This document shows, in pieces, positions 7,189 through 24,157 of a stretch of DNA of 64,000 bases. Under the pieces are notes generated by a model. The model saw only the letters and a list, made by a program, of their open reading frames with translations, did not search any database and was not told the DNA's origin. Source of the DNA: an uncultured Aeromonadales bacterium (lineage in GTDB: Bacteria; Pseudomonadota; Gammaproteobacteria; Enterobacterales; Succinivibrionaceae); NCBI GenBank assembly GCA_902782145.1, contig CACZLZ010000009.1, positions 1 through 64,000 on the forward strand, written 5' to 3'. How positions within the stretch are numbered: the first letter of the stretch is position 1; the number at the start of each line of letters is the position of its first letter. The translations under genes and the position numbers were made by a program.

Positions 7189-8535
7189 TCAGTTCTCCCG
7201 GCTCCCCGCACCTGCCCCATGGAAGTCCAGTCCCTCCGCCACAGCACAGCACAGCAGACGGATCTCCTCCTCAGAGGCCACAAAGGGCGGCATCAGGTAG
7301 ATCAGGCGGCCAAAGGGCCGGATCCAGACTCCATGCTCCACAAAGAACTTCTGCAGAGCACCCATGTCCACCGGATCCTTAAGCTCCACCACTCCGATGG
7401 CACCCAGCACCCGGACTTCGGCCACTGCCGGATGTCCGCCCAGGGGCAGCAGTCCCTGCCTGAGCCAGCCATCAATCCGCCGCACCCGCTCCTGCCAGGG
7501 GGAGGACAGCAGCAGATCAACGGAGGCACAGGACACCGCCGCCGCCAGGGGATTGGCCATGAAGGTGGGTCCGTGCATAAGCACCCCAGCCCGGCCGGTG
7601 CAGATCCCCTTCATCACCTTCTCATTGGTCAGCACCGCCGACATGGTCATGAAGCCCCCGGTGAGGGCCTTGCCCAGGGCCATGATATCCGGCACCACCC
7701 CGGCCCAGTGGCAGGCGAAGAGTTTGCCGGTGCGGCCGAAACCCGTGGCGATCTCGTCGAAGATCAGCAGCACCCCGAAATAGTCGCACAGTGCCCGCAC
7801 CTTCCGGAGAAACTCGGGATGGTAGAAGTACATTCCACCGGCACCCTGCACCACCGGCTCCAGGATCACCGCGGCGATCTCCTCATGATGCTCCCGGAGC
7901 ACCTCATACAGTTCATCACAGCAGGCAGGATCCCAGGGATCCCCGAAGCGGCAGGATGGCCGGGAGATGAAGAAGTTGGGAGTGAGGAAATCCCGGTAGA
8001 TGGAATGCATGGATCCTTCCGGATCTGTGACGCTCATGGCCCCGAAAGTGTCCCCGTGGTAACCGCCCCGCAAGGCCAGAAAGCGGGTCCGGGTGCCCTT
8101 GGGACACAGCGTGCCCTGGCACTGCAGGGCCATCTTAAGGCTCACCTCCACTGCCACCGATCCGGAGTCCGCAAAAAACACATACTGGAGGGGCTCCGGC
8201 GTCAGCTCCACCAGCCTTGCGGCCAGCCCGGTGGCACTGGCATGGCGGATCCCGCCGAACATCACATGGGACATTTTCCGGATCTGCTCCTCTGCGGCAT
8301 GCTCCAGTTCCGGAACCCCGTAACCGTGAATGCAGGCCCACCAGGAAGACATGCCGTCCACCAGGCGCCGTCCATCCCGGAGAAAGAGGGAGCACCCCTT
8401 GGCGGACACCACCTCATAGGTGGGAAGGGGGCTGGTAAGGGAAGTGTAGGGATGCCAGACATGGCGCAGATCAAACTGCTCCTCCTTCATTGCCCCGCCC
8501 GCAGCGGCGGATCCCAGATCTGGCAGTGAAGCCAT
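7189..8535 (-). CDS. bioA: Adenosylmethionine-8-amino-7-oxononanoate aminotransferase
   Basis: A 448-residue class III PLP aminotransferase that makes 7,8-diaminopelargonate in biotin synthesis. Recognisable features are HVWHPYTS (25-32), DGMSSWWACIHGYG (60-73), GGYHGDT (157-163), Asp260 in FDEIATGFGRTG and the PLP-binding Lys289 in ALGKALTGG. The WHPY and SSWW motifs favour BioA over other class III enzymes. The start at 8535 has GAGGA about ten bases upstream; residue 16 (MKEEQFDLRHVWHPY) is an alternative closer to the family N-terminus. It is separated from any other bio gene in this window. Confidence 0.92.
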   Translation of the reverse strand: MASLPDLGSAAAGGAMKEEQFDLRHVWHPYTSLTSPLPTYEVVSAKGCSLFLRDGRRLVDGMSSWWACIHGYGVPELEHAAEEQIRKMSHVMFGGIRHASATGLAARLVELTPEPLQYVFFADSGSVAVEVSLKMALQCQGTLCPKGTRTRFLALRGGYHGDTFGAMSVTDPEGSMHSIYRDFLTPNFFISRPSCRFGDPWDPACCDELYEVLREHHEEIAAVILEPVVQGAGGMYFYHPEFLRKVRALCDYFGVLLIFDEIATGFGRTGKLFACHWAGVVPDIMALGKALTGGFMTMSAVLTNEKVMKGICTGRAGVLMHGPTFMANPLAAAVSCASVDLLLSSPWQERVRRIDGWLRQGLLPLGGHPAVAEVRVLGAIGVVELKDPVDMGALQKFFVEHGVWIRPFGRLIYLMPPFVASEEEIRLLCCAVAEGLDFHGAGAGSREN

Positions 8536-8721: not shown

Positions 8722-9813
8722 TCAGCAGTTCTGTGTGCCGGTGCAGCTCACGCTGCCGAAAAAGCGCATAGCCAGGATCAGCAGGATCACCACAGCAGCA
8801 AACACCAGGATCCGGATCAGGAGACTGTCCTTCCGGATCCGCCCCGGTTTCCCGGCAGCGATCTTCTCCTCCTCCTGATCCAGCCGCCTCCTGCGCGCCC
8901 CGGGATCCGGTGCCGGTCGCGGCTCTGCGCCCTCCTGGCCGGATCGGGTCACCGAAGCTCCCCAGGAAACCTTGGGTGCCGGACCGGAGGATCCCCGGCC
9001 CCTTTTCCGCCTGCTCTTCCGGGAGCCGGAGGTGTCAACCGGGATCACCGCGGGAAAGAGTTCCCCTGAAGGCAGGAGCACCGAGGTGCGGTGGGTGACA
9101 TGGGCCACCATGTCCGGGCGCGCCATCTTCAGCACCGGCGGAAAGGTCTCATAGGAAGGAATGAAAAAATAGGCGTAGCGCCGATAGTCCGGCGGCAGGG
9201 GGAGGGTGCAGATGGTCTGCATATCGGTGTGAGTCAGCTCCGCATAAAGCCTTCCGGCAAAAAGCATGAGCCCATCATTGTCCACAGAATAGGACATGAC
9301 ATGATCCGGCAGGCATTCCAGCAGCTCGGTGATCCGGTGGCCTTCATATTCAAAGCCCTCCTGTCCCGGAGGATGGCTTGCGCCGTCATCCTCCTCCCCG
9401 GCCAGGAAGATGATGAAAGCCCCCTTCTCCGACACCTTCGGCCGGTGATACATCCGGTCAAAGGATCCCCCGGGCCGGCCCACCAGCAGATCCCGGTCAA
9501 TGAAGCCCAGGAGATCCGTGAGGATCAGGAAAAAGTCATCGGGGGTCTGGAGGAAGGTCTTGTAAAAGCAGTGGAAGAGAAAATTGTCGTAAACCTCGCC
9601 CCGGACCAGGGGCTCAGCGGCGGCGGCCTCCTGGCAGGCGCCTGAGTCCTCCATAAAATCCACCTGCCCCACATTACCCCGGGCAACAAAACCCGGCGCC
9701 AGGGCGGTGAACTCCGCATTCATGTGCTGGATCCCGTAGTCGTGCTGCGGGGACGGGTAATCCAGGACATTGTCATCGTCGTGGATCTGGGGATGGATAT
9801 ACTTTCTTTTCAT
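8722..9813 (-). CDS. Tail-anchored protein of unknown family, paralogue B
   Basis: 363 residues, no signal peptide, and a single hydrophobic segment near the C-terminus (LVFAAVVILLILAMRFF) preceded by basic residues. This predicts a cytosolic protein anchored by its tail. The N-terminal 80 residues align with the gene at 10155-11162: a KRKYIH or RRKYLH start, PSP...YGI.HM(N/D)A.FTALAPGF, then G..G.VDF.E.SG. A proline- and arginine-rich linker (about 255-320) joins the globular part to the anchor. It lies at the downstream end of the vWA/PP2C/kinase cluster on the same strand, 341 bases from its paralogue. I do not recognise the family. A role as membrane partner or target of the phospho-signalling genes is inference from context. 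Confidence 0.7.
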   Translation of the reverse strand: MKRKYIHPQIHDDDNVLDYPSPQHDYGIQHMNAEFTALAPGFVARGNVGQVDFMEDSGACQEAAAAEPLVRGEVYDNFLFHCFYKTFLQTPDDFFLILTDLLGFIDRDLLVGRPGGSFDRMYHRPKVSEKGAFIIFLAGEEDDGASHPPGQEGFEYEGHRITELLECLPDHVMSYSVDNDGLMLFAGRLYAELTHTDMQTICTLPLPPDYRRYAYFFIPSYETFPPVLKMARPDMVAHVTHRTSVLLPSGELFPAVIPVDTSGSRKSRRKRGRGSSGPAPKVSWGASVTRSGQEGAEPRPAPDPGARRRRLDQEEEKIAAGKPGRIRKDSLLIRILVFAAVVILLILAMRFFGSVSCTGTQNC

Positions 9814-9973
9814 CTCATCTCACAACGCCTGCCCGGGCCTGTGGCACTTCCCCTCTGCCCTCCCCGTCTTCCCAGCTCATGATCACCGGAGAGGAGGCGG
9901 CACCGCCTGACTCTGGGATCTCCGGCGCCGGCACGATCCGCAGCAGATCAGGAAATTCCCCAGCGCCTTGGGC

Positions 9974-10141
9974 ATCAGAGTCTGCGGAGATCCGTCAGCA
10001 TCTCCAAGAGTCCGTTAGAGTCTCCGGGGTATGTCAGCCACTCCAAACGACCTTCAGAAGTTCCCGGTGCAGGTCAGCAACACCGATCGTCCGTCTACAT
10101 CAATGGACTGATCCCATGTCAGCAGTTCCGGCACACATCAG
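9974..10141. repeat. Degenerate repeat array with a period of about 20 bp
   Basis: The words ATCAG, GTCAG, GTTAG, GTCAG, TTCAG, GTCAG, GTCTA, GTCAG and ATCAG begin at 9974, 9994, 10014, 10033, 10053, 10073, 10093, 10118 and 10137. Steps are 20, 20, 19, 20, 20, 20, 25 and 19, and several words are followed by something like CA-n-TTCC. The array fills the gap between the two tail-anchored protein genes (9814-10154), which otherwise holds no gene. Confidence 0.6.
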
Positions 10142-10154
10142 CGGATCCTGCCTG

Positions 10155-11162
10155 TCATCTGCCGCAGCTGGTGAAGGACAGTGTCACCAGCAAGATCACC
10201 AGCAGCAACACGCCAAAGTAAACCACACATCCCATGCGGCGCAGGATCACCTGACCCTTGGACTGGAGCAGCAGATGCTCCAGGGGATTGGCCCCCTCAG
10301 GGATACTCCCGGGGGTGAACGGAACTCCCATGATCCGGCTGATCACATAGGCACAGCGCTCCGTCCGGCTCAGCTCCAGAGGCGGCAGGGCATCCAGAGA
10401 GGGACGGAACCGGGAGACAAAATGCTGCGTGCCCTCATCAGGAGGCGCTGCCAGCAGGTGGGCAACATCGGCACCGCTCAGTTCATAGTACAGGCGGGCC
10501 GCATAATCCAGCATCTCCCGGGCACCCAGGGGAAAGGAGATCACCTCATCCGGCAGGCACATCAGCGCCTCGGTGACAGCAAAGGAATCCCGGACGGGGA
10601 TCTCCACCGCCGCCTCCGGCCCGGCCTGCTTGCCACCCTCACCGGCAGATCCGGCGGCGGCAGGATCCATCTCTTTCTCCGGCGCGGCACCCGCACTGCC
10701 ATCTGGAGGGGTTCCCTGCCCCGTTGCCTGCTCATGCCCGGAGGCTTCCGGCCCGGAGACAAAAAGGATGAAGGCACCCCGATCGTATTTCATGGGGCAG
10801 ACAAAAAGCCGATCCCCGGGCTTGCCCTCAGGACCGATGAGCATGTCCAGATCCCTGAAGCCCAGGCGCTGCACCAGGAGCTCCGGCAGGAGCTCCCCGG
10901 GAGTCCGCATCAGTGTTTTGAACACGCAGCAGGTCACCAGCAGATCTGCCTCGTCACCCGTGATATTCCCGCCCCGGCCTGCCTCACTGCCGGATCCCTC
11001 CAGGAAATCCACCTTGCCGGCACTGCCCTGGCTGGTGAATCCGGGAGCCAGGGCCGTGAAGGACGCGTCCATGTGGGACACGCCGTAACTGCAGCCGGGA
11101 GATGGGCTGTCCAGGAACTGGGTGGCTCCCTGGGGATCAATATGCAGGTATTTTCTCCGCAC
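10155..11162 (-). CDS. Tail-anchored protein of unknown family, paralogue A
   Basis: 335 residues, paralogous to the gene at 8722-9813. Shared N-terminal block: RRKYLH, SPSPGCSYGVSHMDASFTALAPGF, then GKVDFLEGSG. A middle segment (about 140-185) is Gly/Ala/Glu-rich and probably disordered. The C-terminus has one hydrophobic stretch (CVVYFGVLLLVILLVTLSF) ending in SCGR, so a tail anchor is likely. It begins 39 bases after the stop of the kinase gene upstream and is probably cotranscribed with it. The tight linkage suggests that it works with the kinase; the molecular role is unknown. Confidence 0.7.
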   Translation of the reverse strand: MRRKYLHIDPQGATQFLDSPSPGCSYGVSHMDASFTALAPGFTSQGSAGKVDFLEGSGSEAGRGGNITGDEADLLVTCCVFKTLMRTPGELLPELLVQRLGFRDLDMLIGPEGKPGDRLFVCPMKYDRGAFILFVSGPEASGHEQATGQGTPPDGSAGAAPEKEMDPAAAGSAGEGGKQAGPEAAVEIPVRDSFAVTEALMCLPDEVISFPLGAREMLDYAARLYYELSGADVAHLLAAPPDEGTQHFVSRFRPSLDALPPLELSRTERCAYVISRIMGVPFTPGSIPEGANPLEHLLLQSKGQVILRRMGCVVYFGVLLLVILLVTLSFTSCGR

Positions 11163-11201
11163 TGACTGTCTCCTTGATGCTTCCGGGGATAAGGGCGGGG
11201 A

Positions 11202-14200
11202 TCACTTGATCAGGATCAGGGACTTGTCCCCGTTGTCCCGGCTCATAAGCTTGGATCGGATGTACTCCTCCATCATCAGGGAGGTCTTCTCCGTATCCCG
11301 GCACTTGAGATCCACATTGGTGGCCAGATCTGCCAGCCATTCGGTCCATTTCTCCTCGCTGCGCACCTGGGGCATGCTGGCGAAGATCTCCCGGCTCAGG
11401 GATCGGTTCATGTACATCACCATCACCAGGGTGTCCACGATCTTGTAGTCAATGCGCAGCCGCAGCTCCTTCTCGTCCACATACCGGGGCTCCATGATGG
11501 TGCCGTCCCGGAAGATGTAGTCCCCGTACTGGTTGAATCCCAGGGGCAAGATATCATAGTTGCCATTGCACACGGCGGCAATGAAATGTCCCACAGAGGC
11601 GGTGAGGACAAACCAGCCGAAGTCAAAGCGCTTGAGGATCATCAGGGACAGGTTGGTGTCCATGAGATCTGTGGCGATGTTGGCAAAGTTGGACTGGATG
11701 GCCACCTCGTTGACGGCGTTCCGGAAGGCGTCAGCCACCATCTTCTCAAACACCGCCCGGGCGGACTTGCCTCCCATGGTGCCCCGGGAGCCGTTGTGCT
11801 CCTGGGCGGCAATGCCGTGGACCACCGAGTCCACGGAGGATCCCGCCCGGTCAAAGGCCGATGCCAGGGAGCGCACGGCGGCGTTCACCGCCACCCGGCT
11901 GCCCTCCCGGGAGTACACCGCCTTGTCCGAGCCGTCCGCCATGGCGGCAATGACCCAGCCGTAGATGTTCTCCGAGGCGCAGTCCGCATTCCTGGGCAGG
12001 CCGTTGTTGGCATGGAGCCGTCCCCGGATCCCGGCCATGAGCATCACCTTCATGGAGGTCTTGGACTCATTCACATGGACCTGGCTCACCGATCGGAACA
12101 CGTCCGGCTTGTAGAAACTGATGTCGGTGGGGGTGGGGATGTCATTCCAGGTGATCTTCACCGCGTCATCCACCCGGAGGATCACGTTCTTGGACAGCAA
12201 GAGCAGCTTGGATCCCCCCAGCCCCTTGGAGCGGTAGCGGATCTTCAGCATGAAGCGGCCCTTCTGGTTGGGCACCCCGGAGAGGATCTTGGTGTGGTTG
12301 TTGTAGGTCAGGCCCAAAGTGTCATGACCGATGACGTTCTCAATCTCAATGTCCTGGAACACATCATTGAAGTTCACCCGGTAGGTCTGCTCCAGGTTGG
12401 CCCCGGGCAGCTGGGGCACCCCGTCAGAGCTCTCGTTCTCGTCCATGCGGCTGTCCTTGGCATCAGGCACCCGGATAGTGAGCTTGGCGTTCTTGCTCAC
12501 CTTGATCATGTCCATGGGCAGACGGACATTGATCAGGATGCTGATATCACCCACCTGGCTGGGGAAGCCCCGGATGCAGGAGGAGGACTTGCTGTAATAC
12601 AGGCCGCAGGAGTCCAGGCCGATGAACTGCAGGGTGCAGTCCGTGGGGAAGATGGCCTTGAGATCCAGGTTGTACTCCCGGTTGATGATCCCGTCGGGCA
12701 GGATGATCTCATCCTTGTCAAACAGGAATTTGTACTTGTTGTAGAACCGGGGATGCTCGTTCTTCAGCTTGTTGACGCTGGCCTTCAGCCGGTTGATGGA
12801 GTTCTCCGACCGGATGAACAGGTAACTGGCCTCCCCGCCGTCCCGGGTGCGGATGGTGCTCCGGGGCCGGTTCTCATAGCCCAGGCGCACCGACACCAGC
12901 TCGTCCAGGTCACTGGAGAAGAAGAGGCAGCAGGAGTCGGTGATCTTGTAGGACTCCCCGGTCTTGGTTTCCGTGCGGTACAGAGCGTCCTGCATGAAGG
13001 ACAGGCTCACGTTGTTCACATACCAGTTGCCGTTCTCAAAGGAGATGTAGGCCTCGGTGGCAAACTCCTTCTCCGAGGTGAACTCCAGGGGGCGCCGCTC
13101 AGCGGCCAGGAGCCAGCTGCACAGTTTCTTGCCGTTGAAGCCCACAAAACGGGTATTGGTCAGGGCGTATTCTTCCTCCCCCGAACGGCGGTAGAAGTAG
13201 AACACCGGCAGGGGCGTCTGGATCCGGGTGTGGCAGAAGGGGCATTCCTCCACCCCCTTGTCATAAACAAACCAGCCGTGCTCGCAGACCATGCTGGTGC
13301 AGGGCACCAGGAGCTCGTAGGTGTTCACCAGGGCGGTGGCCCACTCATCAGCCCGGGGGCGCAGCTTGGGGTTGTGGAGGCCGTCGATGAAGGCGCGCTC
13401 AAACAATGTTTTGAGATAAGGGCCGCACAGGGTGTAGGGGGTCTTGGCGGGATCGCCGCACTCCCGCTCCGCCGGGTACAGATCGCTGACCTTCACCCGG
13501 TTCTCAAAGTTAGTGGGGTGCTCGATGAACAGGGCCCGCTCCCCCATGATCATCTCCTCGTCCTCGTCGGGATCCAGGTCGTAGACCTTGCCCCCCTTCA
13601 GGGGATGGCGGTTCAGGAGATACATGTAGATCAGGGTGGCCAAGGCATGGCAGTCGGTGTCAATGCTGGGCAGGACCCGGGCGGGATCTGTCAGGGACAG
13701 GTGCTGGGTGGCAATGACCTCCGGGGCGATGAAGTCGGAGGTGCCCATGACCTCGGGGTTGAACTTGCCCGTGACCACCAGGCCGTCCAGATCGATAATG
13801 GAAATCTGCCCGGTGGGGGGATCAATGAGCACATTCTTGTAGGACAGATCCGAATGGGCCAGGCCTGCGGCATTCAGGCGCTTCACTGCCTGGGCGATCT
13901 TCTGGCAGGCGATCACATAGCCCTTCCAGTTGCCCCGCTCCCTGGGATCCAGGAAGCGCTGGTTGCGGATAGAAGAGAACCACTTGCCCTCCTTCTCCTT
14001 CCCCCGGATCCCGCCAGAGTCATTGTCCTCGCTGCCGTAGCGGAAGAAGAAGCAGCTGCGGTAGGTAGGGGACACCAGACCCACCCGGTTGTTGTGGATC
14101 AGAACCTTGGTGGGCCAGCAGTACAGGGGCTCCCAGTAGCGGCCGCCCTCATTGTTGAAAATGCTTTCCCGGTAGGGACCCACAATGGTCTCCAGCCGAT

Positions 14201-14360
14201 CCAGGAGCTGCTCCTGATCCTTGGAGGAGTTCCGGTAAAAGGCCACCACATAGGACTTGTCCGGGCTGAAGTAGACGTCCTTCATTTCGCCCTTGCCTAT
14301 GATCTTGGAGTCCTCATACTCCACTATGGTTCCGTCCAACGCCTTGATCTGTACTATCAT
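11202..14360 (-). CDS. Protein kinase with zinc ribbon, Ig-like repeats and degenerate PP2C domain
   Basis: A 1052-residue cytosolic protein. Kinase domain about 15-345: glycine-rich loop GKGEMKDVY (22-30), catalytic HSDLSYKN (169-176), metal site IDLDG (189-193), APE (212-214). The beta-3 lysine is not where expected: VVAFYR (38-43) has Ala where V-A-K or V-V-K is usual. A zinc ribbon follows (C354, C359, C373, C376). Residues about 430-495 could be a diverged FHA-like beta fold. Two segments fit the He_PIG Ig-like pattern (about 575-612 and 675-711, the latter ending LSGVPNQKGRFMLKI). The C-terminal 270 residues are PP2C-like and paralogous to the next gene upstream, but metal-site motifs are changed: ADG kept (808-810), GD to GH (924-925), TDG to MNR (984-986). 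It therefore looks like an active or atypical kinase joined to a pseudophosphatase. It belongs to the TerY-P (vWA, PP2C, kinase) type of cluster. Confidence 0.8.
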   Translation of the reverse strand: MIVQIKALDGTIVEYEDSKIIGKGEMKDVYFSPDKSYVVAFYRNSSKDQEQLLDRLETIVGPYRESIFNNEGGRYWEPLYCWPTKVLIHNNRVGLVSPTYRSCFFFRYGSEDNDSGGIRGKEKEGKWFSSIRNQRFLDPRERGNWKGYVIACQKIAQAVKRLNAAGLAHSDLSYKNVLIDPPTGQISIIDLDGLVVTGKFNPEVMGTSDFIAPEVIATQHLSLTDPARVLPSIDTDCHALATLIYMYLLNRHPLKGGKVYDLDPDEDEEMIMGERALFIEHPTNFENRVKVSDLYPAERECGDPAKTPYTLCGPYLKTLFERAFIDGLHNPKLRPRADEWATALVNTYELLVPCTSMVCEHGWFVYDKGVEECPFCHTRIQTPLPVFYFYRRSGEEEYALTNTRFVGFNGKKLCSWLLAAERRPLEFTSEKEFATEAYISFENGNWYVNNVSLSFMQDALYRTETKTGESYKITDSCCLFFSSDLDELVSVRLGYENRPRSTIRTRDGGEASYLFIRSENSINRLKASVNKLKNEHPRFYNKYKFLFDKDEIILPDGIINREYNLDLKAIFPTDCTLQFIGLDSCGLYYSKSSSCIRGFPSQVGDISILINVRLPMDMIKVSKNAKLTIRVPDAKDSRMDENESSDGVPQLPGANLEQTYRVNFNDVFQDIEIENVIGHDTLGLTYNNHTKILSGVPNQKGRFMLKIRYRSKGLGGSKLLLLSKNVILRVDDAVKITWNDIPTPTDISFYKPDVFRSVSQVHVNESKTSMKVMLMAGIRGRLHANNGLPRNADCASENIYGWVIAAMADGSDKAVYSREGSRVAVNAAVRSLASAFDRAGSSVDSVVHGIAAQEHNGSRGTMGGKSARAVFEKMVADAFRNAVNEVAIQSNFANIATDLMDTNLSLMILKRFDFGWFVLTASVGHFIAAVCNGNYDILPLGFNQYGDYIFRDGTIMEPRYVDEKELRLRIDYKIVDTLVMVMYMNRSLSREIFASMPQVRSEEKWTEWLADLATNVDLKCRDTEKTSLMMEEYIRSKLMSRDNGDKSLILIK

Positions 14361-14807
14361 CCCTGAAGCACCATCTGCGGCGGGGTCTGTCCCCGCTCCC
14401 TATATCCGCAACAAAACCAATTAATCCGTATCCGCTAACCGGCTGATCCGTATCCGCTGATCCGTATCCGCTGCTCCCCATCCGCCGGCAGTCCCGCACC
14501 GGCACCGGTCAGAGGCCTGATCCCGTGTCAGTTCAGATCCCGCCAGGACAGGAAGCGATGATCCGCCGGCTCCGGAAAAAAGCCCCAATCAGCCCTGCTC
14601 TGTAAAAACGATCAGGAGCCCCTGCCCCGGGATCCTGCTCCCAGGATCCAGTTCACCGGTTCCCGTTCCAGGTACTCGTTCCCGAGATCCATTTCCCGGT
14701 TCCCGCTCCCGGTTCCCCGTCACCATCTGGGGCACCTTCACCCGGCACCGGGATCTGACCGCACCCTGCCATGACCACAGGATCAGATCAGTCCCAGGGG
14801 ATCCTTA
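14361..14807. repeat. 447-base intergenic region rich in short repeats
   Basis: No gene is seen. TGATCCGTATCCGC occurs twice in direct tandem (14444-14457 and 14458-14471) and a close variant, TTAATCCGTATCCGC, is at 14421-14435. Further along, CGGTTCCCG-like words recur between 14655 and 14718. The region lies between the PP2C gene and the kinase gene and should contain the kinase promoter if it is not read through; no clear -35/-10 pair was found. Confidence 0.6.
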
Positions 14808-16232
14808 TCAGAACACCACCGCCAGTGTGCGGTCGTCGTGGTTGCCGATGGACCAGAACTCCAGGTACTTCATCAGCTGCTCCCTAAGCTCGTCATTGCA
14901 GCCGTAAAGGGAGACCTCCCCGGCCAGTTCCCGGTAGAAGTCCAGCCACCGGCGGGAGTCATGGAGGTTCCGATCGGACTCGAACTTGGGATCGCTGACC
15001 CCGTCGGTCATGAGGATCAGGGCGTCAAAGTCCCGCACATAGTTCACCAGGATCCGGCGCCGGATATTGTCCTCAGAGCACACCCCTTCGGTGGTGACAA
15101 ACCTGGTCTCGCCAAAATACCGCCCCTCGTCGGGATTGCAGAGGATGGCGGCATAGCCCTCATGATCGTTGATCATGGCAATGGCCCCGTCCCCCACATT
15201 GTAGGTGAAGACGATCCAGCCCCGGGGGCAGCGGCGGAACACCGACAGCAGGCAGGTGGTGGAAAAGTCGTAAAGCCGGGCGCCTTCCACTGATCCGGCG
15301 GTCTCCTCAAAGCAGGCAATGGTCCGATCCAGGGCGGTTTTCAGGGGCTTCACCATGATCTCGGTGCAGTTGCGGATGAAGGCATTGTCATCGCAGTCCT
15401 GGGCATAGGTCTCCACTGCCCGGAGCACCTCGGAGCTGAAGGAAGAGGAGGAGAACACGTCGCTGAACACCGACTCCATCTGCTCCACCAGCACCCGGGA
15501 GCCCTCCCGGGAGTAGCGGGCTGATCCGGCCCCGTCAGACACCACGCACATATACCAGCCGGTGGCCTCGTGGAAGCTCAGCCGGAAGTCATCGTCCCGG
15601 GGCTTGCCGTCATAGGCGTGGGAGCGGCCCCGGACACTGGCGGCGGCGACGTTTTTCAGCCCCCGCATCCGGTACATGTCCACGATCAGGGCCGCGCTGT
15701 CGCTGTTGGCCTTGGGAAAGGGCAGATCGGCGGGGGGATCCACATATTTCCACAGGGTGATGACCTTCAGGTTCATCAGCTTGGAGAAAGGGGATCCCTT
15801 GATATTGAAGGAGATGGTCAGCTGGAAGGTGCCCAGATGGTTGGGCACCCCCTCGATGGTGAAGGTCTCGGGATTGTAGTGCAGGCCCGCGTCCTCCAGA
15901 CCTGAGATCTGGAAGGATCCCAGGGCCGACTCCGGCACCAGGTTGCGGACGTTGTAATAGTAGGAGATGTTGACAATGGCCTGCTCCAGCTCGCTCAGGC
16001 TCAGCAGCCGGAACAGTTTGGCATCCTGGTTGTCCCCGGCCTCCGGGCGCTTGCGGTCGGCGGCCCGTCCCCTGAGCAGGCTGTAAACCAGGGCGTTGGC
16101 GTTGGTCTCCTCCTGAGGCACATCCGGTGCCTGCACGTCCAGGGTCTCCTGGGCCACGCAGACATTGTTCTGCCTGACGTCATCGCCGCCGGACAGATCA
16201 AACTCATTGCCTGGGATGTACAGTTCACTCAT
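14808..16232 (-). CDS. PP2C-family serine/threonine phosphatase with Ig-like domain
   Basis: A 474-residue cytosolic protein. Residues about 82-160 fit the He_PIG Ig-like pattern: FQISGLEDAGLHYN, then FTIEGVPNHLGTFQLTI. Residues about 190-474 are a PPM_2-type phosphatase with all metal-binding motifs: GRSHAYDGKPRDD (202-214), SDGAGS (232-237), GDGA (347-350), TDGVSD (409-414) and DDRT (466-469). It should remove phosphates placed by the partner kinase. It starts 17 bases after the vWA-zinc ribbon gene, so the two form an operon. The fused kinase downstream carries a paralogous but degenerate copy of this Ig-PP2C unit. Confidence 0.85.
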   Translation of the reverse strand: MSELYIPGNEFDLSGGDDVRQNNVCVAQETLDVQAPDVPQEETNANALVYSLLRGRAADRKRPEAGDNQDAKLFRLLSLSELEQAIVNISYYYNVRNLVPESALGSFQISGLEDAGLHYNPETFTIEGVPNHLGTFQLTISFNIKGSPFSKLMNLKVITLWKYVDPPADLPFPKANSDSAALIVDMYRMRGLKNVAAASVRGRSHAYDGKPRDDDFRLSFHEATGWYMCVVSDGAGSARYSREGSRVLVEQMESVFSDVFSSSSFSSEVLRAVETYAQDCDDNAFIRNCTEIMVKPLKTALDRTIACFEETAGSVEGARLYDFSTTCLLSVFRRCPRGWIVFTYNVGDGAIAMINDHEGYAAILCNPDEGRYFGETRFVTTEGVCSEDNIRRRILVNYVRDFDALILMTDGVSDPKFESDRNLHDSRRWLDFYRELAGEVSLYGCNDELREQLMKYLEFWSIGNHDDRTLAVVF

Positions 16233-16249
16233 GATGGGATCCGTGAATC

Positions 16250-17269
16250 TCAGCCGATGGTGCGGTTGATGTCAACGCCCACATCCGAGGAGCCGAAGAA
16301 GGATCGGCGGCCGCAGTGGGGGCACACATTCACCTGGTTGTTCCTGACGCACAGCACACCGCCGCAGCTGCAGATGCCGATGGCGCTCTCATTGCCGCAG
16401 ATGGGACAGGTGGGATGGCCGTAAAGGTGATCGGTGTTGACCCTGAGGTTCTCATAGCCGTCGGCGGACAGGGAGAAGTAGTTGTCATCCACGGGATAAG
16501 CGCCCTCCAGCTCATAGGCGGTGCTGTCCTTGGAGGACTTCTGGTATTTGATGAGATAGTAGTTCCGGGTGGTCTGACACCGGGAGAGGATGACAATGTA
16601 GTTGTCGTCCACCGTCACGGCGCTTTCCTTCTCCTCCACCTTCTTCACCACCGAACTGTTGACCACGCTCAGGGAGCTACCGTCATGGCGCTTCTTGGCC
16701 ACGCTGCGGCTGGAGGAGTTGATGGAAAGGGTGATCCAGTCAAAGAACTGCTCAAAGGACTTGGGATCGGTGTTCTCCAGGCGGTACACATTGTCAGTGA
16801 ACTGCCTCAGGTACCTGGTGTCCATGGTGTTGCCCATGGCCACGGCCACACACAGCACCGACTCCCCGTACTTCTCCCGCCAGATCCGGGCGGCGTCCTC
16901 GGTGCGATCTGTGGGGTTGCCGTCGGTGAACAGGAACACAATGGGACGCCAGTCACCCTTCTCCTCATAGGTGTTCTTCTTCACACACTTGTCGATATCG
17001 TCCATGAGCATGTAGAACACATTGCCCAGGGAGGTGCCACCCCCCACCGGCAGCTTCACGGAGGTCAGGCGGTAGATCTCCTCCATGGACAGGAGCTTCA
17101 CCGCCTTGCCAGCAAAGGCGATCACCGAAAGCACCGTGGTCTCCAGGGCATAGGGGCTCTGCTTCAGGGTCCTGATTATGGTGGCAATGCCCTCCTCCAC
17201 GCATTTGATGGGCTTGCCCACCATGGATTCGGAACAGTCTATGACCAGGTATATCGGCAGTCGGCGCAT
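16250..17269 (-). CDS. TerY-like vWA protein with C-terminal zinc ribbon
   Basis: 339 residues. The N-terminal vWA domain (about 4-195) has a complete MIDAS: DCSES (Asp11, Ser13, Ser15), GGGTS for the threonine, and FTDGNP for the aspartate. The C-terminal 60 residues hold paired cysteines (CPICGN, CSCGG, CPHCGRR), fitting the TerY-C zinc-binding domain. TerY-type vWA proteins accompany a PP2C phosphatase and a kinase in the TerY-P triad, and both follow here on the same strand. No secretion signal, so cytosolic. Function in metal-dependent scaffolding of the kinase and phosphatase is inferred from that family literature. Confidence 0.85.
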   Translation of the reverse strand: MRRLPIYLVIDCSESMVGKPIKCVEEGIATIIRTLKQSPYALETTVLSVIAFAGKAVKLLSMEEIYRLTSVKLPVGGGTSLGNVFYMLMDDIDKCVKKNTYEEKGDWRPIVFLFTDGNPTDRTEDAARIWREKYGESVLCVAVAMGNTMDTRYLRQFTDNVYRLENTDPKSFEQFFDWITLSINSSSRSVAKKRHDGSSLSVVNSSVVKKVEEKESAVTVDDNYIVILSRCQTTRNYYLIKYQKSSKDSTAYELEGAYPVDDNYFSLSADGYENLRVNTDHLYGHPTCPICGNESAIGICSCGGVLCVRNNQVNVCPHCGRRSFFGSSDVGVDINRTIG

Positions 17270-17886
17270 ACGTTCTCCCCTAAGGTCCCAGCGGTGCCGC
17301 CACGCCGGATCTGACGGGCAGATCCGGCACCGGACGGAGACCGGGTTCCTCTTGTGCTCTCTTGATTGCTTTTGGTGCTGTTGTTTTAGTTGTAATGGTT
17401 ATCCGGCGGTGACGATCAGCAGATGCCATGTATCCGGGCACAGATCCGTGACAGTCCGGCCTCTGCCCTGGCCCCCGGGATTAATCCGGGGCTGATCCGG
17501 AAGATCAGTCCGGGCAGGATCCGGAGGATTAATCCTTGGGCACGATCCGGTGGATTAATCCCGGATCCGGCTGATTAATCATTTTCAGATGATCAGATCG
17601 GAACAGTCAGTTCCGTACTTCCAGCATCCCGCCGTCAGACTCCGTCTTCCTTCATCCAGTTTGCCGGGACCATCCGCCGGTCTCCAACTTTCAGGATCCA
17701 GGATCCGTCTGCCGGCCTCCCGATCCGCCAGCCACCTTCCCCGCAGGCCGCCTCCCCGGGATCCGCACACGCTCCGGGAAAGACGCCTTAAGGTCACCCT
17801 CAATGGCGCTGTGGGATCTCACCCAAGGCACCCTGGGGGCTCACTCAAAAGCACCCTGGGGACTCCATCAATGACGCCGCAATGTC
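17270..17886. repeat. 617-base intergenic region with four GATTAATC palindromes
   Basis: The 8-base palindrome GATTAATC occurs at 17479, 17527, 17553 and 17573, flanked by GATCCGG words. Nearer the vWA gene, two 22-base imperfect direct repeats of the form CTCACYCAA-n-GCACCCTGGGG lie between 17818 and 17863. No gene is seen. The TTAATT-like palindromes could be protein binding sites for control of the downstream (minus-strand) operon. Confidence 0.6.
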
Positions 17887-18426
17887 TCACTCGGCGGAGT
17901 TCAGAATATAGTTCAGCAAGGTGTTGCTGTCAGTGGTGTCCAGGCTCACCACCGCATCGGAGATGTTGGACAGCCAGGGATCCCCCTGGTGCACCGTCTG
18001 TCCGGCGATGCACACCACCAAGGCCCCGATGTTGCGCTTCCGGAGCTCATAAAGCCCAGCCCGGTAATCATCTGAGGGCTCCCCGTCCGTAAGGACAAAC
18101 ACCACCGGCCTCCAGTGGTTCCGGTAGTCGTCAACCTTGGTCTCCAGATCGATCTCCTGGGCCACCAGGTTGAAGGCTGCCCCCAGGGCGGTGCAGCCGT
18201 AGATCTCCAGCTCCGGCAGCACAAAAGAGTTGATATCCGTCAGGGGCACCCTGGTCTTGGCGGTGTCACCGAAAGTGATCACCGACACCAGGACCCGGCC
18301 GAAGGTGGACTGGTTCCGCACCAGGGTGGACACAAAGCTCTGCAGTCCGTTCTGCATGGAAAGCATGGCCTCGCCCCGCATGGATCCCGAGGCATCCAGC
18401 AGCAGATAAATGGAAAGATACTCCAT
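17887..18426 (-). CDS. TerY-like vWA protein, short form
   Basis: 179 residues, a single vWA domain without the zinc ribbon of its neighbour. MIDAS residues are intact: DASGS (Asp11, Ser13, Ser15), GCTALG and LTDGEPSDD. ATG at 18426 is chosen because AGGAGG lies nine bases upstream and the start (MEYLSIYLLLDAS) lines up with the other vWA protein; a GTG at 18435 abuts the ribosome site and is unlikely. It is separated by 617 bases from the rest of the cluster but shares its strand. It is most likely part of the same TerY-P-like system. Confidence 0.82.
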   Translation of the reverse strand: MEYLSIYLLLDASGSMRGEAMLSMQNGLQSFVSTLVRNQSTFGRVLVSVITFGDTAKTRVPLTDINSFVLPELEIYGCTALGAAFNLVAQEIDLETKVDDYRNHWRPVVFVLTDGEPSDDYRAGLYELRKRNIGALVVCIAGQTVHQGDPWLSNISDAVVSLDTTDSNTLLNYILNSAE

Positions 18427-18516
18427 GCCCTTCACCCTCCTGTGGTGCAGCTCCCAGGCGCCTTTTGCGGTTTCCGGGGGAAACGGATCAGCCTGCCGGC
18501 GATCCTCCTCTTCCCG

Positions 18517-19347
18517 TCACTTCTTCCCGGCGGCGCTGCCGCTGTCCTGGCCGGCCTCACCGGCGGCAGCCCCCGTCTCCAGGAAGCGGGTCCGGTAACT
18601 GTCTGCAATGGACTCCACCAGGCCGTCACTAACCAGCACATCCAAAGTGCGCTGGAGCTTCCGGATAATGCCCCGGTCAAAGCTGGGGCCGAATGCCATG
18701 ACCCGGTCGGCGTCGCAGCGGTGGTTCTCCAAGTTCACCGCGGCGGGAACAAAGGTATGGCGCTCCAGTTTGTGGGTTGCCATATAGTAGGCGGCCTCCC
18801 ACTCACTGGCCACCACCACGTCCAGTTCACCGCTGAGCAGTTTGCCAAACTGGATCTCCGGATCGTCGGAGTAATCCTTCACGATCAGGGGATCATCATC
18901 CAGCTCGTCGAAATAGGAAAAGGTGCGGATGATGCCCACCACATGGGAATAAAGGTGAGAGTACTTCTGCACCGGACGGGCGGCATCGGACTTCTGGTAG
19001 ACATACTGCCGGATCCCCGCCAGATAAGGGTTCTTCAGCCTGGGGAAGCCGTTGGTGTCCGCCATGTGGGTGCTCATGCCGGCCACGGCGTCGATATTCT
19101 CATTCTTCAGATCCACCAGGGCCCGGGAGGCGGGCATGGGCTTGAACTCAAACTTGAACCCCGACTCCCTTCCCAGGGTGCGCACCACGTCAATGTCGAT
19201 GCCCGTCAGCTGCTCCCCGTCATCCTGGAAGAAGTTCCAGGGTCCCTCCACCGGGATCCCCACCACAAACACATCCTTGGCCAGAACGGGGGACGCCAGG
19301 ACGGTGAACACCGCCAGCACTGCCGCGCACAACAGTTTTTTAATCAT
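18517..19347 (-). CDS. Periplasmic solute-binding protein, SBP_bac_3 type
   Basis: About 277 residues with a clear signal peptide (MIKKLL, hydrophobic core, cleavage after VLA). The mature protein has the family 3 pattern: GEQLTGIDIDVVRTLG, NENIDAVAGMS, LLSGELDVVVA, and a C-terminal helix LVESIADSYRTRF. Such proteins deliver amino acids or similar small ligands to an ABC importer or a sensor. No matching permease or ATPase is adjacent; the Sap system next door uses its own binding protein. A GTG at 19359 could add four residues. It is transcribed away from sapA across a 226-base shared region. Confidence 0.8.
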   Translation of the reverse strand: MIKKLLCAAVLAVFTVLASPVLAKDVFVVGIPVEGPWNFFQDDGEQLTGIDIDVVRTLGRESGFKFEFKPMPASRALVDLKNENIDAVAGMSTHMADTNGFPRLKNPYLAGIRQYVYQKSDAARPVQKYSHLYSHVVGIIRTFSYFDELDDDPLIVKDYSDDPEIQFGKLLSGELDVVVASEWEAAYYMATHKLERHTFVPAAVNLENHRCDADRVMAFGPSFDRGIIRKLQRTLDVLVSDGLVESIADSYRTRFLETGAAAGEAGQDSGSAAGKK

Positions 19348-19512
19348 GGACAAATTCACAAGTTCTCTGAGGATATCACTGCCGGGATTGCCTCCCCGGC
19401 ACAGATGGAAAAAAGGGCGCGCCGGAGGCTCCCGGATCTCTCCAGGGACCTTGCAGATCCGGCCCGGAGGACAGACGGCACCATGGCCAAAGCCCCCTCC
19501 GGGGCGGCCGGT

Positions 19513-19573: not shown

Positions 19574-21259
19574 ATGATTTTGTTATCTGCCTACCGAAAA
19601 AGGGGAGCCGCTGCCCTGGCAGCCCTGGCGCTCCTGGCATCGGGATGCGGTCCCGGCAAGATCATCCACCGGGACTATGAGACCCAGAACGGGGTGATCT
19701 TCTGCGTCAACTCCACGGTGTCCAACCTGGATCCCGTGAGCAATGAGATTAATGTCACCTCGGTGACCCTGGCCCAGAACGTGTTCAACCGCCTGGTGCG
19801 CTACGACTCCGCCCAAAACACCTTCCTGCCGGAGATCGCCTCCTCCTGGACGGTGTCCGAGGACGCCATGGTGTACCGCTTCACCCTCAGAGATGACGTA
19901 AATTTCCACTCCGTGCCCTGGTTCTCCCCGGCCCGGAGCCTCACCGCCGATGACGTGGTGTTCTCCTTTGAGCGGATCATGGACTACACCGCCCCCGACG
20001 GGGACGGATCCGAGGCCGCCGCCGCCCTGACCCGCAGCGGCTACGATATCCTGGACTTCCGCCACCTGTTGCGGGTCCGGCAGTATGTGCGCTCGGTGAC
20101 CGCCGTGGACCGGCACACCGTGGAGTTCCAGCTGGTGCGCCCCTGGTCCTATTTTCTGGAGCTGCTGGCCAACACCAACTGCATCATCAGCTCCCGGGAG
20201 TTCTACGACTCCATTCCCGACTCCCCCAAGAAGGAGGACTACTTCAGGAACCATCCGGTGGGCACCGGCCCCTTCCGCCTGGCCTCCATGAAGTTCAACG
20301 ATCACATCATCCTGGAGCGCAACCCCTCCTACTGGCTGGATCCCGCCCTGCCCCGGCTCAGCAAGCTGGTGCTGGATATCACCCCCAACCGGGCCGAGCG
20401 CATGAACAAGATGCTCACCGGAGAGTGCATGGTGAGCAACCAGCCCAGCAAGGCCGTCAGCGCCACCGGTGGAGCTGCCAAGAACTTCTCCTCCCTGGGA
20501 TCTGAGACCTACGACGCCACCATGATCTTCTTCAACACCTCCCGGATCCCCACCAACAGCCCGGATGTGCGCCAGGCTGTGGCCTCGGCGATAAACCGGG
20601 AAGTTTACGGTAGCGTCCTCTACCCCCATTCGGCCATGCTGCCCACCAGCATGCTTCCCTTTGACGTGACCTTCTTTGCCACGGTGGCCCACCAGGAGAC
20701 CGCCGCCGCCGCCCGGCTCCTGGCGGAGAAGGCGCCCCAGATCCTCCGGCGCAGCGGCATTGTCTATGTCTACATTGAGCGCAGCAGCAGCCGCATGGGC
20801 TACAACATCTCCCGGCTGACCCAGCTCCTGCGCAGCGACCTCAGCGCCCTGGGCCTGCATCCCCGGGTCCGGGAGGTAGACGCCCGCACATTGTCCCGGA
20901 TCGCCGCCCGGAACGCCTACGACATCATCGTCACCCGGAACATCTTCCCCATCAAAATGCCCCTGTACAAGCTTCACGCCATGTTCCAGTGCGTGGACGG
21001 CCGCCCGGCGGGGGGCAATTACTCCGCCTACTGCAGCACCGAGCTCCAGGAGCTGCTGGACCGCAACAAATACCTTAAGCTCAAGGACATAAGCCTGGAG
21101 GATCTCCAGGCCATCAACGCCCGGATCGAGCGGGATCTGCCCATGATGACCGTGAGCATCGCCAGCGACTACTACATCTACCATCCCGCCCTGGCGGGGA
21201 TCCGGCGCAGTGCCAACCACGGCCTGGACTTCACGGAGGCGCACCTGCTGGCACCATGA
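19574..21259 (+). CDS. sapA: SapA-type peptide-binding lipoprotein of an ABC importer
   Basis: 561 residues, SBP_bac_5 family. The N-terminus has a lipoprotein signal (LLASGC, lipidated Cys at about 25) where E. coli SapA has an ordinary signal peptide. Family motifs include EIASSWTVSEDAMVYRFTLR, LTADDVVFSFER, HPVGTGPFRL and ILERNPSYW. Sap importers take up peptides, including antimicrobial peptides, and in enterics sapBCDF also affects putrescine or potassium transport. It is the first gene of a complete sapABCDF operon; its stop overlaps the sapB start (ATGA). Confidence 0.9.
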   Translation: MILLSAYRKRGAAALAALALLASGCGPGKIIHRDYETQNGVIFCVNSTVSNLDPVSNEINVTSVTLAQNVFNRLVRYDSAQNTFLPEIASSWTVSEDAMVYRFTLRDDVNFHSVPWFSPARSLTADDVVFSFERIMDYTAPDGDGSEAAAALTRSGYDILDFRHLLRVRQYVRSVTAVDRHTVEFQLVRPWSYFLELLANTNCIISSREFYDSIPDSPKKEDYFRNHPVGTGPFRLASMKFNDHIILERNPSYWLDPALPRLSKLVLDITPNRAERMNKMLTGECMVSNQPSKAVSATGGAAKNFSSLGSETYDATMIFFNTSRIPTNSPDVRQAVASAINREVYGSVLYPHSAMLPTSMLPFDVTFFATVAHQETAAAARLLAEKAPQILRRSGIVYVYIERSSSRMGYNISRLTQLLRSDLSALGLHPRVREVDARTLSRIAARNAYDIIVTRNIFPIKMPLYKLHAMFQCVDGRPAGGNYSAYCSTELQELLDRNKYLKLKDISLEDLQAINARIERDLPMMTVSIASDYYIYHPALAGIRRSANHGLDFTEAHLLAP

Positions 21260-22218
21260 TCCTGATCCTCCTGCGGAAATCCGCAATGCTGCTACTGTCG
21301 GCGGTGATCCTGCTGCTGCTGACCTTCTGGTTCCACGTCCGGTCCAATGATCTGGGGGATCAGGATCTGTTCCTGCGCTTCCTGATCTACTTGAACCGGA
21401 TCCTGCGCCTGGACTTCGGCTTCTCCGCCCAGTCCTCCCGCCCGGTGTCCGGAGAGTTTCTGGAATACGGCGCCGCCACGGCGGAGCTGTGCCTGGCAGC
21501 CATGATCCCCTCCCTGGCGGCGGGGTTCTTCCTGGGCTGCTTTGCCGCCCTGCACAAGGATCGCTGGCTGGACAGCGCCATCACCAACTCCAGCATCATG
21601 TTCTCCTCCATCCCGGTGTTCTGGATCGCCCAGATCTTCATCGCCCTCCTGGCGGTCAGGGTGGACTGGATCCCCAGCAACGGCCGGATCAGCCTGCTGT
21701 ACAGCACCGAGCAGATCACCGGCTTCATCCTGGTGGACACCCTCCTCCGGGACGGCTTCGGGGACTCCTTCCTCAACGCCCTGACCCACTTCATCCTGCC
21801 GGTGCTGTCCCTTTCCATCCTCCCCACCACGGAGATGATCCGCATTGTGCGCAACTCCCTGTACAGCGTCATGCAGCAGAACTACATCAAGGCCGCCTTC
21901 AGCCGGGGCTGGAGCTCCTGGTACATCATCTACCGCCACGGGCTGCGCAACGCCATGCCCTCCATCCTGGCCCAGTGCGGCTCGGTGCTGTTCCTGACTT
22001 TCACCTCGGTGATCATTGTGGAGAATGTCTACAACTGGCCCGGGGTGGGCACCTGGATCATTGAGGCCATCCGCAGCGGGGACGTGAATGTGGTCAACGC
22101 CTACCTGGTGCTGGTGGGCATGCTCTTTGTGGTGCTGAACATATCCCTTGAATTTGCCGCCGATCTGTCCATAATCTACCTGAACCACCCGGGCCGGGGC
22201 CGGAGCACGCCGTCATGA
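21256..22218 (+). CDS. sapB: SapB-type ABC transporter permease
   Basis: 320 residues, about six membrane segments. It has the permease coupling-helix (EAA) region YIKAAFSRGWSSW...HGLRNA (about 214-236) and the FTSVIIVENVYNWPGVGTW segment typical of DppB/SapB. The start overlaps the sapA stop by four bases, so the genes are translationally coupled. It pairs with SapC to form the membrane channel. Confidence 0.9.
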   Translation: MILILLRKSAMLLLSAVILLLLTFWFHVRSNDLGDQDLFLRFLIYLNRILRLDFGFSAQSSRPVSGEFLEYGAATAELCLAAMIPSLAAGFFLGCFAALHKDRWLDSAITNSSIMFSSIPVFWIAQIFIALLAVRVDWIPSNGRISLLYSTEQITGFILVDTLLRDGFGDSFLNALTHFILPVLSLSILPTTEMIRIVRNSLYSVMQQNYIKAAFSRGWSSWYIIYRHGLRNAMPSILAQCGSVLFLTFTSVIIVENVYNWPGVGTWIIEAIRSGDVNVVNAYLVLVGMLFVVLNISLEFAADLSIIYLNHPGRGRSTPS

Positions 22219-22254
22219 CCGGAAGCAGCAGATCCCCCGGGACACGGAGGCGCC

Positions 22255-23139
22255 ATGAGTGAGGAAAAGGACACATCCCGGGGACAGGGATTCATCCAGG
22301 TGCTCCACAGCAACTGGATGGCCTGGTACGCCATGTGGTTTCTGGTGGCCTACTTCCTGCTGGTGGCCGGATCCATGGCCTTCATCGATCTCAATCCCTA
22401 CGATCAGCAGACCATGGACTTCTTCCGCCCGCCCCGGATCTCCTTCTCCTTCAGCCAGGGCTTAAGCAAGTTCATCCTGGGCACCGACGATCTGGGACGG
22501 GACGTGTATGCCCGGCTGATCTACGGCGCCCGGAACACCTTCCTCTACGCCCTGGCGGCGGCGGTGATCTCCTCCCTGGCCGGAGGGCTGGTGGGGTTCC
22601 TGAGCGCCCTCTATTCCAGCCGGCTCCTGAACATCATCCGGATCCTGGTCTCCTCGGTGCGATCCTACACCCCGGTGATCCTGGCCTTTGCCATCATCAC
22701 CGTCCTGGGACCCAGCCTCAAAAACGCCGCCGTGGCCATCGCCGTGTCCCTGATCCCCCGCTTCACCCTGATCTGCCATGAGATCACCACCTCAGAGATG
22801 AAGAAGGAGTACATCCGGGCGGTGATGCTGGACGGGGCCGGCACCCTGGCCATGTTCCGCCTGTCACTGTTCCCCAATATCCGGGATGTGCTGATCATCC
22901 AGTTCACCAAGCATTTCTCCATGGCCATCCTGGATCTGACGGCCCTGGGGTTCCTGGGGCTCAGCGCCGAGGCCCAGGAGCCGGAGCTGGGAAGCATGAT
23001 CGCTGAGAACATGGACATGCTCTACACCGGCAACTACTGGATCATCGCCATCCCGGGTGTGGCCATCATCTCCTTCGTCATCGCCATCAACATCCTCAGC
23101 GACGGGATCCGCAACGCCCTGCACCGGGAGAACCTCTGA
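22255..23139 (+). CDS. sapC: SapC-type ABC transporter permease
   Basis: 294 residues, DppC/SapC type with about six membrane segments. FILGTDDLGRDVYARLIYGARNT is the hallmark, broken here into two parts: GTDDLGRDV and RLIYGARNT. The coupling-helix region is EYIRAVMLDGAGTLAMFRLSL. Start ATG 22255 follows CGGAGGCGCC. The gap to sapB is 36 bases and to sapD one base. Confidence 0.9.
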   Translation: MSEEKDTSRGQGFIQVLHSNWMAWYAMWFLVAYFLLVAGSMAFIDLNPYDQQTMDFFRPPRISFSFSQGLSKFILGTDDLGRDVYARLIYGARNTFLYALAAAVISSLAGGLVGFLSALYSSRLLNIIRILVSSVRSYTPVILAFAIITVLGPSLKNAAVAIAVSLIPRFTLICHEITTSEMKKEYIRAVMLDGAGTLAMFRLSLFPNIRDVLIIQFTKHFSMAILDLTALGFLGLSAEAQEPELGSMIAENMDMLYTGNYWIIAIPGVAIISFVIAINILSDGIRNALHRENL

Positions 23140-23140
23140 C

Positions 23141-24157
23141 ATGGCGCTGCTGGATATCAGAAACCTCTCAGTCCGGGTGGGGCCCGGCAGGGACGCCCTG
23201 ACCGTGGTGGACCGGATCAGCCTGACGGTGAACGAAGGCCGGATCCTGGCCCTGGTGGGGGCCTCAGGCTCCGGCAAAAGCCTTTTGATGCAGGCGGTGA
23301 TGATGCTCCGCCGGGACAACATCTCCTACTCCGCCGACCGGTTCAAGCTGGACGGTGAGGATCTGCTGAAGATCCCCTCCCGGAAGCGGCGCCGGATCAT
23401 CGGCCAGAACATCTCCTTCATCATGCAGGATCCCCGGCAGAGCCTGGATCCCACCATGAAGATCCGGGATCAGATCTACGAGGTGATGCCCCGGATCCCC
23501 TGGTACCATGTGCTCTCCCGGCTGAAGAACTTCTTCCGCCGCACCCGGAGCAAGACCGCCGCCGCGCTGCTCCACCGCAGCGGGATCCGGGATCATGAGC
23601 GGATCCTGGGATCCTACCCGGCCCAGCTGTCCGACGTGGAGTGCCAGAAGATCATGCTGGCCATTGCCCTGGCCTCCAAGCCCCGTATCCTGCTGCTGGA
23701 CGAGCCGGTGGTGAACCTGGAGACCGCCTCCCGGCTCCAGGTGCTGAAACTGCTGGACCGGTGCGCCAAGAACGACCGGACGGCGGTGGTGGTGATCTGC
23801 AACGATCTGGCCTCGGTCTACAACTTTGCCGACGAGTTCGCCTTCATGTATGCCGGTCAGATCGTGGAGCGGGGCAGCCGGGACCGGATCCTGAACAATC
23901 CCCGGCACCCCTACACCGCCTCCCTGATCCGCACCATGCTGGAGCTGGGACGGAACGGGCGGCTCAAGCGCTACCTGCCGGTGCTCAGCGGCAAGCACCC
24001 AGACTACCGCAGCATGCCCGTGGGCTGCCGCTTCGGCGCCCGGTGCCGCCGGGCCCGCCGGGAGTGCAACCGGGAGCCGGAGATGATCATCAGCAAGAAT
24101 GAGCAGTACCGCTGCCATTTCCCCCTGGAAGACGGAGCACTTTACGAGGATGAATAG
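23141..24157 (+). CDS. sapD: SapD-type ABC transporter ATPase
   Basis: 338 residues starting at ATG 23141, one base after the sapC stop. Walker A is GASGSGKS (40-47); Walker B is RILLLDEPV. The signature region reads AQLSDVECQK instead of LSGGQ, a deviation that SapD proteins are known for. The C-terminus has the oligopeptide-transporter extension with a Cys cluster (GCRFGARCRRARREC). It pairs with SapF. Confidence 0.9.
   Translation: MALLDIRNLSVRVGPGRDALTVVDRISLTVNEGRILALVGASGSGKSLLMQAVMMLRRDNISYSADRFKLDGEDLLKIPSRKRRRIIGQNISFIMQDPRQSLDPTMKIRDQIYEVMPRIPWYHVLSRLKNFFRRTRSKTAAALLHRSGIRDHERILGSYPAQLSDVECQKIMLAIALASKPRILLLDEPVVNLETASRLQVLKLLDRCAKNDRTAVVVICNDLASVYNFADEFAFMYAGQIVERGSRDRILNNPRHPYTASLIRTMLELGRNGRLKRYLPVLSGKHPDYRSMPVGCRFGARCRRARRECNREPEMIISKNEQYRCHFPLEDGALYEDE

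Follow-up and report, generated by a model that had tools for sequence, protein, structure and literature searches.

We describe here a cassette of four genes of the TerY-P type, in which the protein kinase is fused to a degenerate PP2C phosphatase domain (pseudo-PP2C). The cassette lies in the window, which is the whole analysed stretch of 64,000 nucleotides from contig 9 of the genome G000, an uncultured gut/rumen-type Aeromonadales bacterium of the Succinivibrionaceae (genome of 3.18-Mb, 99% complete). The explanation which we consider the best, and hold with moderate confidence, is that of a TerD-less four-gene TerY-P cassette whose kinase carries a dead-PP2C regulatory arm, the two C-terminally anchored genes which follow it in G000 being unrelated to it.

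Gene content and conservation of the cassette

The six open reading frames which a preliminary description had grouped into one extended TerY-P-like cluster are all open on the − strand, and are transcribed in the order small vWA protein, vWA protein with TerY_C, PP2C, kinase-pseudoPP2C, and the two anchored proteins TA1 and TA2. Pfam supports the vWA, TerY_C, PP2C and kinase assignments. The features of the cassette are as follows.

17887..18426, − strand: vWA1, small vWA-domain protein (Pfam VWA 2.6e-14; metal-ion-dependent adhesion site, MIDAS, complete by eye: DASGS, T, D)
16250..17269, − strand: TerY, vWA protein with C-terminal TerY_C metal-binding domain (Pfam TerY_C, PF15616, 1.5e-32; VWA 5.8e-09)
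14808..16232, − strand: PP2C phosphatase with all metal-binding motifs present (PP2C_2 2.1e-36; motif alignment)
11202..14360, − strand: fused kinase of 1052 residues (Pkinase 1.4e-08, PP2C_2 1.3e-07)
11205..12155, − strand: pseudo-PP2C part of the kinase gene (homology to the neighbouring PP2C, 5e-21)

The relatives of G000 used for comparison are Succinivibrionaceae, several of them metagenome-assembled genomes with RUG isolate names, and the fused kinase was searched for in 57 genomes of this family. The genus of G000 includes G001, G002 and G003, the sister genus includes G013 and G023, and a third genus (g11) comprises G014, G024, G029 and G033. Absences in single genomes are limited by contig ends, the kinase lying 1.2 kb from the contig end in G003 and 2.2 kb in G002, and by the genome G004, which is 74% complete.

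The cassette is present in six of the 57 family genomes (G000, G001, G002, G003, G013 and G023), with identical gene order and strand in all six loci of the two genera. vWA1 is the first gene in the five other genomes too; it starts at an ATG, and an upstream GTG at 18435 would be possible, yet the relatives start at the ATG. TerY is 60-86% identical to its counterparts in the five relatives and its MIDAS motif is complete by eye (DCSES, T, D). The PP2C begins with a small beta-type domain, which looks Ig-like or PIG-like by eye only. The TerY-like vWA with TerY_C, the PP2C with intact motifs and the Ser/Thr kinase with zinc ribbon are thus all found adjacent and co-oriented, and the conserved core of four genes amounts to the TerY-P triad plus a further vWA gene, TerD being absent from it. 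The same set of vWA, TerY_C-vWA, PP2C and kinase genes also surrounds kinase matches in other phyla (e.g. locus L087) and in ter clusters of the family. The TerY-P-like label of the preliminary description therefore holds, and of its extended cluster the first four genes proved to be conserved together, whereas six genes as one unit did not.

TerD was searched genome-wide as PF02342 in G000, G001 and G023 and no match was obtained in these three genomes; the cassette is thus TerD-independent in them, and the identity of the G000 locus as a ter (TerD) cluster was ruled out. G002, G003 and G013 additionally have TerY-P/ter loci of the ordinary kind, in which the kinase is short.

The spacers of the G000 cassette measure 447 bp between PP2C and kinase (14361-14807) and 617 bp between vWA1 and TerY (17270-17886), against 9-79 and 117-456 bp in the relatives. 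Both expanded spacers contain short imperfect repeats rich in GATCC/ATTAATCC.

The fused kinase

Residues 1 to about 510 of the fused kinase, i.e. kinase domain, zinc ribbon and a beta domain, correspond to an ordinary TerY-P kinase; two PIG-like repeats (about 540-735) and the pseudo-PP2C (about 736-1052) follow. Among the 57 family genomes full-length matches, 46-77% identical, were obtained in G001, G002, G003, G013 and G023 only, by which the fusion noticed in the preliminary description is established in six loci, and in all six the protein extends about 540 residues beyond the usual length of about 500. The kinase half shares about 50% identity with the kinases encoded at TerY-P loci in various phyla, and the zinc-ribbon cysteines 354, 359, 373 and 376 are invariant among 27 kinases.

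Outside the family, 75 loci from a collection of 84,980 species have ordinary, unfused kinases of about 500 residues, and none of 13 further matches from samples of the order, class and phylum is fused, some of these being cut or carrying a stop. In this survey the fusion was confined to Succinivibrionaceae, and the roughly 88 TerY-P kinases seen outside the family are unfused; other phyla were covered by these samples and by the top 80 out of 236 matches of one collection scan, which rare fused relatives may have escaped. An apparent kinase of 880 residues at L087, likewise outside the family, proved to be an ordinary kinase whose reading frame had been extended too far at the 5′ end.

The C-terminal arm is homologous to the adjacent phosphatase over the greater part of its length: kinase residues 630-1029 align with PP2C residues 56-454 (E 5e-21), and residues 554-614 match PP2C residues 82-144 (E 3e-5) as a second copy of the phosphatase N-terminal domain. 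This homology is what is supported for the repeats, since their identity as PIG or Ig domains found no Pfam match. For the beta domain which follows the zinc ribbon, an FHA identity was likewise left unsupported by Pfam and PDB profiles. The structure model is of good quality up to about residue 500, weak after residue 510 and of low confidence across much of the pseudo-PP2C, and the best matches listed in a fold search with the kinase are kinase domains only. No OB fold was seen at the kinase C-terminus, within the limits of this weak part of the structure model; the STK_OB model gave a weak match (0.035) over 40 kinase-domain residues only.

In an alignment of the six pseudo-PP2Cs with 27 live PP2Cs, none of the six has the aspartates of the GDG and TDG motifs, which every live PP2C retains; GDG has become GHF, GRF, GRY or GQC, and TDG has become MNR, MNK or MNN. 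The scaffold motifs RG[RK].HA, DG and S-R-E-G are retained. From these replacements the domain is predicted to be catalytically inactive. The pseudo-PP2Cs are monophyletic in the tree (100/100) on a long branch, and the branching order of the genomes is the same for the live PP2Cs and the pseudo-PP2Cs of these loci; the fusion is thus older than the split of the genera and the cassette was inherited together. The pseudo-PP2Cs do not nest within their partner PP2Cs, and their placement is unsure because of the long branch. The ratio of nonsynonymous to synonymous substitution between G002 and G003 is 0.058 for the pseudo-PP2C and 0.058 for the live catalytic half, a rough value as synonymous sites are far diverged; pairs with G000 are unusable, since they are saturated and their middle region is distorted by indels left unaligned. 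A ratio like that of the live half indicates that the domain is maintained, and the pseudo-PP2C is under purifying selection.

The tail-anchored genes

Downstream of the kinase the following two genes are located in G000.

10155..11162, − strand: TA1, C-terminally anchored, 335 residues, one C-terminal hydrophobic stretch; outside the conserved unit
8722..9813, − strand: TA2, C-terminally anchored, 363 residues, TA1 paralogue, one C-terminal hydrophobic stretch, followed by bioA; outside the conserved unit

They share 32% identity across an alignment of 280 residues (E 1e-43). TA1 starts at a GTG with AGGAG ahead, 39 bp past the kinase, and may be co-transcribed with it in G000. TA1 and TA2 are 341 bp apart, a gap which, like the 447 bp separating the kinase from the PP2C, speaks against a compact operon of six genes.

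The preliminary description had taken the anchored pair as part of the system and had suggested looking for a conserved six-gene unit in related genomes; four genes only were found as such a unit. G001, G002, G003, G013 and G023 hold the cassette without anchored genes beside the kinase, and in G001, G002, G013 and G023 no anchored homologue was found anywhere in the genome by single-sequence and profile searches. The sole match outside the window in the single-sequence search lies in G003 on another contig, directly before bioA. By profile search the family was also found in four of four g11 genomes, one copy each, between pgsA and a ClC-type channel gene (names given from reading of the sequences), and in G014, G024 and G029 the search with the window kinase gave nothing at E <= 1e-20. 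The anchored genes thus occur without the triad, and close relatives have the triad without them; these are the two findings which the preliminary description had named as refuting its six-gene system, and that system is refuted by them. What comes after the kinase also varies: it is a methyltransferase gene in G003, a gene for a deaminase-like protein in G001 and bioB in G013 and G023; G002 has a gene for an unknown protein there, and G000 has TA1-TA2-bioA. The differing genes at this position and the anchored homologues elsewhere show the pair to be a neighbour by rearrangement; TA1 and TA2 are an unrelated lineage-specific family which lies downstream by chance in G000.

Members of the anchored family outside the window are located at L165 4942-6069, L166 3912-5048, L167 4983-6203, L152 997-1899 and L040 5742-6578 (G003). 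The family has a conserved N-terminal core with the motifs YG-x-x-H, LGF-x-D and TE. Neither Pfam, PHROG and PDB nor fold comparison gave a confident match, the fold search with the anchored protein (a weak model) giving nothing below E = 1.5, and this C-tail-anchored family is apparently undescribed.

Proposed mechanism and rival explanations

The kinase and the PP2C would act as opposing enzymes on one or more shared targets, and the two vWA proteins may scaffold them via their MIDAS metal sites. The C-terminal arm of the Succinivibrionaceae kinase would be an acquired second copy of the architecture of the partner phosphatase (PIG-like repeats and PP2C fold) which has lost catalysis. Most likely the arm would serve as a regulatory or docking module, occupying the surface, on TerY or on the phospho-target, with which the live PP2C would engage; alternatively, it may control the kinase in cis, much as the pseudophosphatase TAB1 acts on TAK1 in trans. 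That the kinase carries, in one chain, a dead copy of its opposing phosphatase as a cis-acting TAB1-like regulator or decoy, invented independently in bacteria, is put forward tentatively. Several points weigh against the explanation preferred here. Neither the PIG-like repeats nor the beta domain matched anything in Pfam or PDB, and the probable PP2C fold of the arm is supported by sequence and not by the structure model. In the pseudo-PP2Cs the first DG aspartate is mostly retained, as is the last aspartate, so some metal binding is possible. The mechanism is drawn from homology and residue loss, and no consistently linked effector gene was found at the six loci.

The retained aspartates and the retained RGR.HA motif would also suit a C-terminal PP2C which is alive with an altered metal site, giving a kinase-phosphatase in one chain, but two core aspartates are gone in six of six proteins of two genera and replaced by e.g. 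H, R, Q or N, by which this is rendered very improbable. A six-gene system, in which the anchored proteins would recruit the phosphorylation switch to the membrane or be its substrates, is about as improbable: TA1 follows the kinase closely with a good ribosome-binding site and the paralogues share its strand, but close relatives with a kinase 77% identical have no anchored genes there, and the homologues stand beside bioA (G003) or pgsA/ClC (g11), three such genomes being without the kinase. Two further explanations are compatible with the anatomy of the cassette. One is that the cassette by itself defends the cell against phages, in the manner of the TerY-P of Gao et al. 2020, and that the pseudo-PP2C would be a guard or decoy for phage proteins. 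A defence role is reported for TerY-P-like modules (PMC7699616; PMC11090510) and the cassette is intermittent in the family, but no recognised nuclease or toxin lies beside the six loci (neighbours read by eye), the flanks are of housekeeping type (Sap-like transporter, biotin genes), PADLOC gives no vWA or PP2C hits and only weak kinase ones (the STK_OB match above), and the congruent trees suggest stable inheritance, not island-type mobility; we regard it as rather unlikely. The other is an envelope or peptide-stress switch tied functionally to the adjacent Sap-like transporter, which is divergent from the cassette at five of six loci in both genera, with a solute-binding protein gene ahead of vWA1 in three loci. 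As G001 has a complete cassette without the transporter, and common neighbours may be plain inherited synteny, the chance of such a tie is judged to be small.

Neighbourhood, composition and other modules

The neighbouring genes of the cassette and of the anchored pair are as follows.

7189..8535, − strand: bioA-type class III aminotransferase, downstream neighbour (Aminotran_3 1.3e-112)
18517..19359, − strand: family-3 solute-binding protein, just upstream of vWA1 (SBP_bac_3 1.5e-11)
19574..24989, + strand: complete, divergent peptide-type ABC transporter (best NCBIfam SapA, B, C, D and F in order, all under curated cut-offs)

The bioA gene also comes after the anchored gene in G003. The solute-binding gene is at the same position in G002 and G003 only, among the relatives, and the Sap-like transporter adjoins the cassette in G000, G002, G003, G013 and G023.

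The window has 906 GATC sites, against 407 (standard deviation 20) in dinucleotide-preserving shuffles, a strong over-representation, and the density is 14 per kb against 6-8 per kb at the related loci of the genus. Its G+C is about 60%, compared with 44-47% at the congener loci (L035, L036, L037; kinase up to 77% identical), which is a marked shift within one genus. Positions 1-2000 of the window have a G+C of 39%, against about 60% elsewhere in it, and are possibly foreign DNA.

A second, different module of vWA and divergent-kinase genes was found at L053 2195-8204 (contig G000:C41) and L052 4539-10369 (G013:C43); in the latter, 5977-7734 encodes a single protein in which a vWA part comes after a kinase part. 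At L046 7867-9015 (G000:C27) a lone TerY-P-like PP2C, 36% identical to the window PP2C, has no recognised kinase or vWA neighbour in 15 kb.

Significance

The fusion of the kinase with a putatively dead phosphatase domain points to a surface for which kinase and phosphatase may compete, and it would provide a compact construct with the regulatory contact built in for studies of what TerY-P systems sense and target. It is also a possible bacterial addition to the pseudophosphatases. There is a negative lesson as well: two anchored genes adjacent in one genome misled a reading made from that sequence only.

Comparison with known systems

The nearest known system is the TerY-P triad of the zinc-ribbon kinase type of Anantharaman et al. 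2012, as given in PMC11090510. A TerY-like vWA, a PP2C and a Ser/Thr kinase bearing a zinc ribbon at its C-terminus, encoded side by side in one orientation, are common to both, and duplicated vWA genes are described there too. Here, the kinase is about 540 residues longer, by the PIG-like repeats and the pseudo-PP2C, and TerD, nuclease and CoCoNuT genes are not linked to the cassette. The kinase thus deviates from the triad in length and make-up (1052 against about 500 residues); length does not define the triad, hence the cassette is a variant of it. A fused kinase with pseudo-PP2C is not known from the accounts of TerY-P in papers later than the founding 2012 description.

The anti-phage TerY-P module with an OB-fold kinase (Gao et al. 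2020, through PMC7699616 and PMC11090510) has vWA, phosphatase and kinase in common with the cassette, which has a zinc ribbon and no OB fold detectable by STK_OB. The classical ter clusters of the family (G003:C32, G011, G013:C68, G021, G028) consist of the same vWA, TerY, PP2C and kinase parts, with 46-50% identity in the kinase half; unlike the window cassette, they are linked to TerD-type genes and their kinase, of about 505 residues, is unfused. In animals, TAB1 is the pseudophosphatase partner of the kinase TAK1 (PMC5297835), where a dead PP2C fold also acts on a kinase; these are separate animal proteins and the likeness would be an analogy of mechanism only, with no relationship implied. 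Fusions of PP2C and Pkinase are known in bacteria, mostly in Pseudomonadota (PMC12088040), and are reported as PP2C phosphatases, whereas here a TerY-P kinase carries a residue-depleted PP2C at its C-terminus.

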